Positions 57,143-58,490 of a stretch of 64,000 nucleotides of DNA are shown here, in pieces; the stretch's first letter is position 1; each line of letters starts with the position of its first letter. The stretch covers positions 1 through 64,000 of the forward strand of contig JACZYG010000011.1 of assembly GCA_022571215.1 (NCBI GenBank), in the 5' to 3' direction. The DNA comes from Fidelibacterota bacterium. GTDB taxonomy: Bacteria > Fidelibacterota > SORT01. The position numbers and the translations under genes are program-made. The notes under the pieces were generated by a model, which worked only from the letters and a program-made list of their open reading frames with translations, was not told where the DNA came from and did not search any database.

Positions 57143-57601
57143 CTAATCTGCTTCTACTTTAATATTATTTTCATTGTCAATAACGATGGCTTGACCATTC
57201 AGCTGTTCGGATATACCCTTCATTGTAACATTTTCCAGAACCTCAAACATTTTATTTTCGGCTTCGTGAAATGTATCTTGAATCACGCAATGTATATTTA
57301 CCGAACAGTTGGATCTAACTCCACTGCAATTGAAAATCGGATTCAATCCCTCCGCCGCTTCGATTATATGTTTTAAATTAATATCTTCCGGTATTCTTGA
57401 AAGTGTATAACCGCCCTTCGAACCGCGATATGAACTAACAATCCCAGCCTTCGCCAAAGATTGGAATATCTTGGCGAGATAACTCTCCGAAACGTTTTGT
57501 TCCCTCGCTATTTCACTGACATAGGTGACACTGTTTTCCGGTTTATTGGAAAGGTAGTATATTCCGTGTATCGCATGCTCACTTTTTGAAGTAAATTCCA
57601 T
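57143..57601 (-). CDS. Rrf2-family transcriptional regulator with three-Cys Fe-S motif
   Basis: HAIHGIYYLS, ISESYLAKIFQSLAKAGIVSSYRGSKGGY-like HTH, CSGVRSNCSVNIHC. Confidence 0.93.
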   Translation of the reverse strand: MEFTSKSEHAIHGIYYLSNKPENSVTYVSEIAREQNVSESYLAKIFQSLAKAGIVSSYRGSKGGYTLSRIPEDINLKHIIEAAEGLNPIFNCSGVRSNCSVNIHCVIQDTFHEAENKMFEVLENVTMKGISEQLNGQAIVIDNENNIKVEAD

Positions 57602-57625: not shown

Positions 57626-57642
57626 CGGACAAAATTTGTCCG
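57626..57642. promoter_or_regulatory. Candidate operator for the Rrf2 regulator
   Basis: CGGACAAA-A-TTTGTCCG perfect palindrome just downstream of a minus-strand promoter (TTGCAA 57672-57677, 17 nt, TATATT 57654-57649). Confidence 0.6.
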
Positions 57643-57700: not shown

Positions 57701-57729
57701 TTGACTTATAACCTTACTTCAGATATTTT
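57701..57729 (+). promoter_or_regulatory. Predicted promoter of the candidate selenoprotein gene
   Basis: TTGACT (57701-57706), 17 nt, TATTTT (57724-57729). Confidence 0.45.
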
Positions 57730-57775
57730 TATTGGACGTTACTGATAATTTATCTCTAAATAAAAGGATACAACT

Positions 57776-58375
57776 GTGAAACGGATAGTCAAAAATAGAT
57801 TCTGCAAATTTCTTATTCCTCTTTTATTACTGTTTACGACGGAATCAATTGCGTCCCTGCCTGAAGCAATTCAGTATCGAAACGCCCGATTCAAAGATCT
57901 CCAAAGCATAGATGTTCTTAAAAAACTTTTCAATGAGGACGAAGGAAAAGTACGACTTTTTTTATTGATGTCCCCTACTTGAAGCGTTTGTATTCGAGGT
58001 GCCCGGTGGGTACAAAATAATATTCTTGCAAAATATCCTAAAGCTGATTTCAAGATCTACGCCGTTTGGATGCCCGTTATTCGCGGAGATTCAAAACTCG
58101 CCGTTCCGGATGCGGTGGCGCTTCTACCGGACTCAAGGGTAATTCACTATTGGGACCAAACTCGCATTAGCGGTAGTTTCTTTAAAAAGAATATCGCTCC
58201 CGATGTGAGCAGTAGCGTAGCGTGGGATATGTTCTTTCTTTATGGACCGGAAGCTGTTTGGGAAGAAATTCCTGAATCGCTCGTAGACAAGGGAAGAACT
58301 ATTATCGGCTCCTCAGGAGCTCTCGGTTATGAATTCGGCGAACTCATGAAGAGCATGAATAATAAAACAAAATAG
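57776..58375 (+). CDS. Candidate selenoprotein: secreted thioredoxin-like protein with UxxC motif (TGA codon 69 read as Sec)
   Basis: Two track ORFs (57776-57982, 58070-58375) are in the same frame and separated by one TGA at 57980-57982; reads LLMSPT-U-SVCIRGARWVQNNILAKYPKADFKIYAVWMPVIRGD...; GTG start with AAGGA upstream; signal peptide. Confidence 0.7.
57999..58013 (+). promoter_or_regulatory. Bacterial SECIS-like stem-loop
   Basis: GTGCCC-GGT-GGGTAC, 6-bp stem with one G.U, loop begins with G, 22 nt between the TGA and the loop. Confidence 0.5.
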
Positions 58376-58442: not shown

Positions 58443-58473
58443 AAAAAAGACCGGTCAGATGCCGGTCTTTTTT
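58443..58473. terminator. Bidirectional Rho-independent terminator
   Basis: AAAAAAGACCGG-TCAGATG-CCGGTCTTTTTT. Confidence 0.88.
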
Positions 58474-58490
58474 TTAGAACCCTGGTTCTC

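Follow-up and report, generated by a model that had tools for sequence, protein, structure and literature searches.

An in-frame TGA probably read as selenocysteine in a predicted exported thioredoxin-fold protein of a Fidelibacterota bacterium, and the apparently unrecognised family to which it belongs

Does a single in-frame TGA within a thioredoxin-like gene mark a broken gene, or is it read as selenocysteine (Sec)? This question is raised by a locus in the window, i.e., the whole stretch of 64,000 nucleotides analysed here (Fidelibacterota bacterium, assembly GCA_022571215.1, contig JACZYG010000011.1), where an earlier note had proposed that two same-frame ORFs split by one TGA hide a selenoprotein. 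The ORF list indeed gives exactly two ORFs at the locus (57776-57982 and 58070-58375), no stop codon interrupts the 87 nt that separate the TGA from the second ATG, and translation of the entire region yields a frame of 199 residues that is uninterrupted if TGA is read as U. The features of the locus are collected in Table 1.

Table 1. Features at and around the putative selenoprotein gene (coordinates of the window).
Feature	Coordinates	Strand	Description
Putative selenoprotein gene	57776..58375	+	GTG start at 57776, TAG stop at 58373-58375; 199 aa, predicted Sec = residue 69
TGA, predicted to encode Sec	57980..57982	+	Codon 69; opens the U-S-V-C motif; aligned with the leading Cys of WCGPC in thioredoxin
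Probable signal peptide MKRIVKNRFCKFLIPLLLLFTTESIAS	57776..57856	+	Read from the sequence: basic N-terminus and hydrophobic core
SD-like AAAGGA	57763..57768	+	7 nt upstream of the GTG; read by eye
Weak sigma-70-like promoter, TTGACT-17-TATTTT	57701..57729	+	Consensus scan, near chance level
Terminator-like inverted repeat	58443..58476	+	A-rich/GC stem/T run; read by eye
Candidate bSECIS hairpin	57999..58013	+	Stem GTGCCC/GGGTAC, 6 bp; apical loop GGU, +23 to +25 from the TGA
Rrf2-family regulator, three-Cys (IscR-like) motif	57143..57601	-	Pfam Rrf2, E = 8.5e-35; divergent neighbour; same synteny in L081 and L082
Palindrome CGGACAAAATTTGTCCG, candidate Rrf2 operator	57626..57642	.	Between the divergent genes; CGGACAAnnnTTGTCCG arms conserved

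The expression signals that had been listed for this gene fared unequally. A Shine-Dalgarno-like sequence was read by eye upstream of the GTG. The promoter, previously called plausible, matches nine of the 12 consensus positions in a scan that found five such sites with 2.6 expected by chance, and thus lies at the level of chance hits. The terminator stands as an inverted repeat with a T run visible by eye, but it is absent from the list produced by the terminator scan. The predicted signal peptide suggests that the product is exported. A search of the window against Rfam gave no match.

The codons that follow the TGA evolve as coding sequence. Compared with its two closest relatives, the window copy shows a dN of approximately 0.12-0.18 downstream of the TGA against a saturated dS (≥2.5), which indicates that the 130 downstream codons are maintained as protein; no other lesion was found among them, so the earlier count of about 130 intact codons holds. 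The TGA itself is conserved. In the phylum of this genome, Neomarinimicrobiota, the gene was identified in six of 245 genomes, in all six with the TGA at the same codon, and each of five homologues within the phylum has exactly one in-frame TGA in its matched part, at this same codon, which places the position far beyond chance. A first scan of the genome contigs with the single protein as query returned no match, and six loci were obtained with the alignment as query.

The host genome (2.56 Mb, 96.7% complete) encodes all four genes that had been named as a check on the reading: selA (E 4e-170), the adjoining selB (E 4e-101), selD (L036; E 1e-105) and a tRNA-Sec (selC) that scores above the Rfam cut-off and has the anticodon TCA. 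An in-frame TGA also occurs in selD itself, in the context SSSGGUACK. The Sec machinery of this genome is thus complete, and at least one of its genes encodes a standard selenoprotein. Among genomes carrying the family, selA was over the cut-off in all of the 11 first tested and in 42 of the 46 from Acidobacteriota. One of the four exceptions (G577) has a Cys copy, as expected; no full-length selA was found in a search of the other three (G352, G388 and G514), which have TGA copies, perhaps because their assemblies are incomplete. In Neomarinimicrobiota selA is common (over the cut-off in 175 of 245 genomes), and co-occurrence in this phylum is therefore weak evidence by itself.

Bacterial Sec insertion elements (bSECIS) have been modelled as hairpins with a loop of 3-9 nt, a stem of 4-16 bp, a G among the first two positions of the loop, a distance of 16-37 nt from the UGA and an MFE of at most -7.5 (PMC13188914). 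The hairpin downstream of the TGA in the window agrees with this model in loop, stem, spacing (22 nt) and MFE (-8.3 kcal/mol for the stretch from +10 to +42), which answers the bSECIS search proposed earlier. Within the family the hairpin, which lies 18-25 nt beyond the TGA, takes two registers: class I, to which the window copy belongs, and class II, with its loop at +18 to +20. The class I hairpin is encoded by the codons GGN GCC CGG TGG GTN; its pair 21-33, formed by the third-position (wobble) bases of the codons for Gly and Val, is CG in 12, UA in four and GC in two sequences, with synonymous changes and no mismatch in any of the 18. In class II pairing reaches 100% over 21 sequences, both sides have changed in five pairs, and the covariation score was equalled by none of 500 shuffles. 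Counting hairpins at least as strong as that seen in every TGA copy, one follows 49 of 49 TGA copies and three of eight Cys copies (Fisher p = 1.3e-5, for related sequences and uncorrected for kinship). The MFE of the full stretch gave combined p values of 5e-10 for Sec copies and 0.27 for Cys copies, again among related sequences; for a single sequence this test is weak (p = 0.05 for the window), and the argument from the hairpin hence rests on covariation. Among single lines of evidence, the hairpin data argue most strongly for programmed recoding.

Considering this evidence, it is nearly certain from sequence comparison that the UGA at 57980-57982 is recoded as Sec. A thioredoxin-like pseudogene with a nonsense mutation would also be given as two fragments by a routine gene caller, but it would be hard to reconcile with a TGA shared across four phyla, with purifying selection on 130 otherwise undamaged codons, with a covarying hairpin 3' of the TGA copies and with Sec machinery in the genome, and we regard it as very improbable. 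Less probable still is a change of genetic code or general stop readthrough, by which TGA would mean Trp or some other residue. This would likewise place coding sequence on both sides of an in-frame TGA, but the neighbouring listed ORFs are open under table 11, the gene keeps its own TAG stop, a tRNA-Sec with a TCA anticodon is present, and homologues that lack the TGA have Cys at this position (in one case Ser) and in no case Trp. The selenoprotein reading of the earlier note is thus supported by the sel genes, the conserved TGA and the covarying hairpin, and the best explanation overall, with a probability of roughly 0.93, is one intact gene for an exported thioredoxin-fold selenoprotein, recoded by means of a bSECIS.

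Profile searches identified relatives in Acidobacteriota (47 of 396 genomes), Chloroflexota (nine of 400) and Zixibacteria (11 of 133), and the family appears to span at least four bacterial phyla; no relative was found among the viral contigs and plasmids scanned. Counted by row, and with one 39-residue fragment left out, 40 Acidobacteriota copies contain an in-frame TGA and 11 are free of stops. Copies read over their whole length comprise 49 distinct Sec copies, eight Cys copies and one Ser copy (Zixibacteria, Ser-x-x-Ser). Several copies depart from the common form. In one (L069:1486-2013) the motif is U-P-K-U, with TGA encoding both residues of the redox motif; in a Zixibacteria copy (L121) SPTSASS replaces SPTUxxC, with loss of the redox motif, and Trp-Asn replaces Trp-Asp; Zixibacteria copies (L029:5248-6531) have a long added N-terminal region ahead of the Sec domain; and the frame of one Sec copy (L056) continues into a heavy-metal-binding-like SGMTCGGC motif.

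On the tree, the window copy falls within a clade of 18 copies from Neomarinimicrobiota, Acidobacteriota and Chloroflexota, all with Sec (support 100/100). The Cys copies are scattered, and on the well supported branches no fewer than five state changes are required. Most sampled copies have Sec, which, judging from this unrooted tree, may have been the ancestral residue. As to the comparison of homologues at codon 69, TGA is conserved in relatives, a minority of which have Cys. The notion of a Cys-to-TGA position stands insofar as Cys occurs there in relatives, but the usual residue of the family is Sec, not Cys. Tools of the deep-Sep type filter on Cys homologues (PMC12013277), and the greater frequency of Sec than of Cys may explain why searches starting from Cys homologues missed the family.

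An AlphaFold model based on the 39-member alignment has a thioredoxin fold (pLDDT 94.9, pTM 0.90). Its matches to PDB structures in Foldseek, which include ResA, CcmG, a Bacteroides protein disulfide isomerase and GPx4, were moderate (best E 2.2e-5; TM 0.5-0.6). According to model and alignment, U-x-x-C occupies the place of CxxC at the start of the first core helix, and the Sec is aligned with the first Cys of WCGPC in E. coli thioredoxin, in accordance with the earlier placement of the TGA at the first Cys of a thioredoxin-fold CxxC. Seven residues are invariant in the alignment (numbering of a 171-residue fragment): Arg32, Pro39, Sec/Cys41, Cys44, Trp122, Asp123 and Trp134. The pair Trp122-Asp123, present in 39 of 39 members, lies directly ahead of strand 124-128 of the model. 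At the equivalent site thioredoxins have a cis-Pro and glutathione peroxidases (GPx) a Trp-Asn; strand order suggests that Trp122-Asp123 may take this position.

Scans of 39 members against Pfam and NCBIfam returned no significant match (best match: a PDI domain model, E 0.0049), and with the single protein as query Pfam yielded nothing beyond a chance match. Likewise, the family is not named in Table 1 of a 2026 catalogue and review of 119 prokaryotic selenoprotein families and subfamilies (PMC13188914). This comparison was made at the level of the named entries, which include broad groups such as thiol-disulfide isomerase-like proteins. Bacterial Sec thioredoxins and TlpA/ResA-like selenoproteins (UxxC) share with the family the thioredoxin fold, U-x-x-C at the CxxC site, a downstream bSECIS and probable export; the family differs from them in its lack of a significant Pfam or NCBIfam match and in having Sec as the majority state, and from thioredoxins in its invariant Trp-Asp in the presumed place of the cis-Pro. 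SaoT and the Rcas_1661-type proteins (NF040730 and NF041057, both models listed in PMC13188914, the latter as DsbG-like) are also UxxC thioredoxin-like selenoproteins, but the family matches them only weakly and non-significantly (E 0.14-0.17). Nearest by description is the marine GOS_C (NF045500; PMC2398784), also UxxC with a thioredoxin-like fold. GOS_C is, however, Cys-rich (312 Cys versus 74 Sec), whereas the present family is Sec-rich; our scan of NCBIfam, in a library that may lack NF045500, gave no match to this model. The protein would therefore belong to a whole unrecognised family rather than be the Sec version of a known one, which refines the earlier reading. No previous description was found in the literature covered, which took in few subscription journals and no preprints, and an earlier one may exist.

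In the window, the putative selenoprotein gene diverges from the Rrf2 regulator, and the order Rrf2, Mrp-like, MIP18-like, TusA, UppS and BamA is kept in three genomes. These neighbours include Fe-S assembly proteins (Mrp and MIP18-like), and no mer gene was found among them. The arms of the intergenic palindrome are conserved in three of three family-f1 genomes, and the window contains a single instance of the pattern GGACA-N3-7-TGTCC. A partner gene common to all neighbourhoods was sought and none was found. Several Acidobacteriota and Chloroflexota members are linked to mer genes. In one (L093:5610-6641), a Cys copy carries a fused MerT domain at its N-terminus and lies between MerR and a MerP-like protein, beyond which comes MerA (over the cut-off); in a Chloroflexota locus (L124:8517-10856), MerR, a Sec copy and MerA are co-directional, the latter two overlapping. 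A second Sec copy lies approximately 3 kb away in that genome. Other family genes are found near MerA and MerE (L126), MerC with MerR (L094 and L095), MerC (L096) or MerT (L091). A MerR-family regulator is not by itself evidence of a role in mercury handling.

From its sequence, the protein is probably an exported thiol/selenol oxidoreductase or peroxidase. Two narrower functions were weighed, and each appears unlikely. Handling of mercury or other soft metals, in which the Sec-Cys pair would bind or relay Hg(II) or keep transporter thiols reduced, would agree with the relatives located beside MerR, MerA, MerC, MerE or MerT and with the MerT fusion, but most of the 30 neighbourhoods examined are without mer genes, and the neighbours in the window are of the other kinds listed above. 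Some members may nevertheless have been recruited to soft-metal defence. To a similar degree we doubt a GPx-like selenoperoxidase in which the invariant Trp-Asp would act as the Trp-Asn of GPx. Glutathione peroxidases (GPX4, BtuE) share the thioredoxin-superfamily fold, the Sec/Cys centre and, as strand order suggests, a Trp plus an acid/amide residue before a core strand, and GPX4 and other GPx chains were among the structural matches (TM ~0.5). The family, however, has a resolving Cys at +3 (U-x-x-C versus U-x-x-T in GPx) and no significant sequence similarity: hhalign to E. coli BtuE gave E = 0.22, Pfam gave no GPx match, the GPx motif was not found, the GPx Gln is not apparent, and the equivalence of Trp-Asp and Trp-Asn is deduced from strand order rather than coordinates.

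For the exported oxidoreductase, the following mechanism can be proposed. SelB-GTP-Sec-tRNA would read the UGA as Sec thanks to the hairpin at 57999-58013, and the exported product would adopt a thioredoxin-like fold whose redox centre is U-x-x-C. The Sec selenolate would then most likely attack an oxidised or electrophilic substrate (a disulfide, a peroxide or a soft-metal/thiol adduct), and the Cys at +3 would most likely resolve the intermediate. In the clade of the window copy, the gene is probably co-switched with the divergent three-Cys, IscR-like Rrf2 regulator. More tentatively, the family may be a Sec-first one, in which Sec is ancestral and usual, Cys has arisen by repeated loss, an invariant Trp-Asp in place of the cis-Pro gives a chemistry unlike that of thioredoxins and peroxidases, and some Acidobacteriota and Chloroflexota have recruited the protein into mercury resistance.

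These results add an apparently unrecognised selenoprotein family that would extend over at least four phyla. They also indicate that Sec-dominated families can escape filters based on Cys homologues and that gene callers split them into two fragments. With its conserved Trp-Asp and its mer-operon members, the family offers a chemistry that is open to direct tests.
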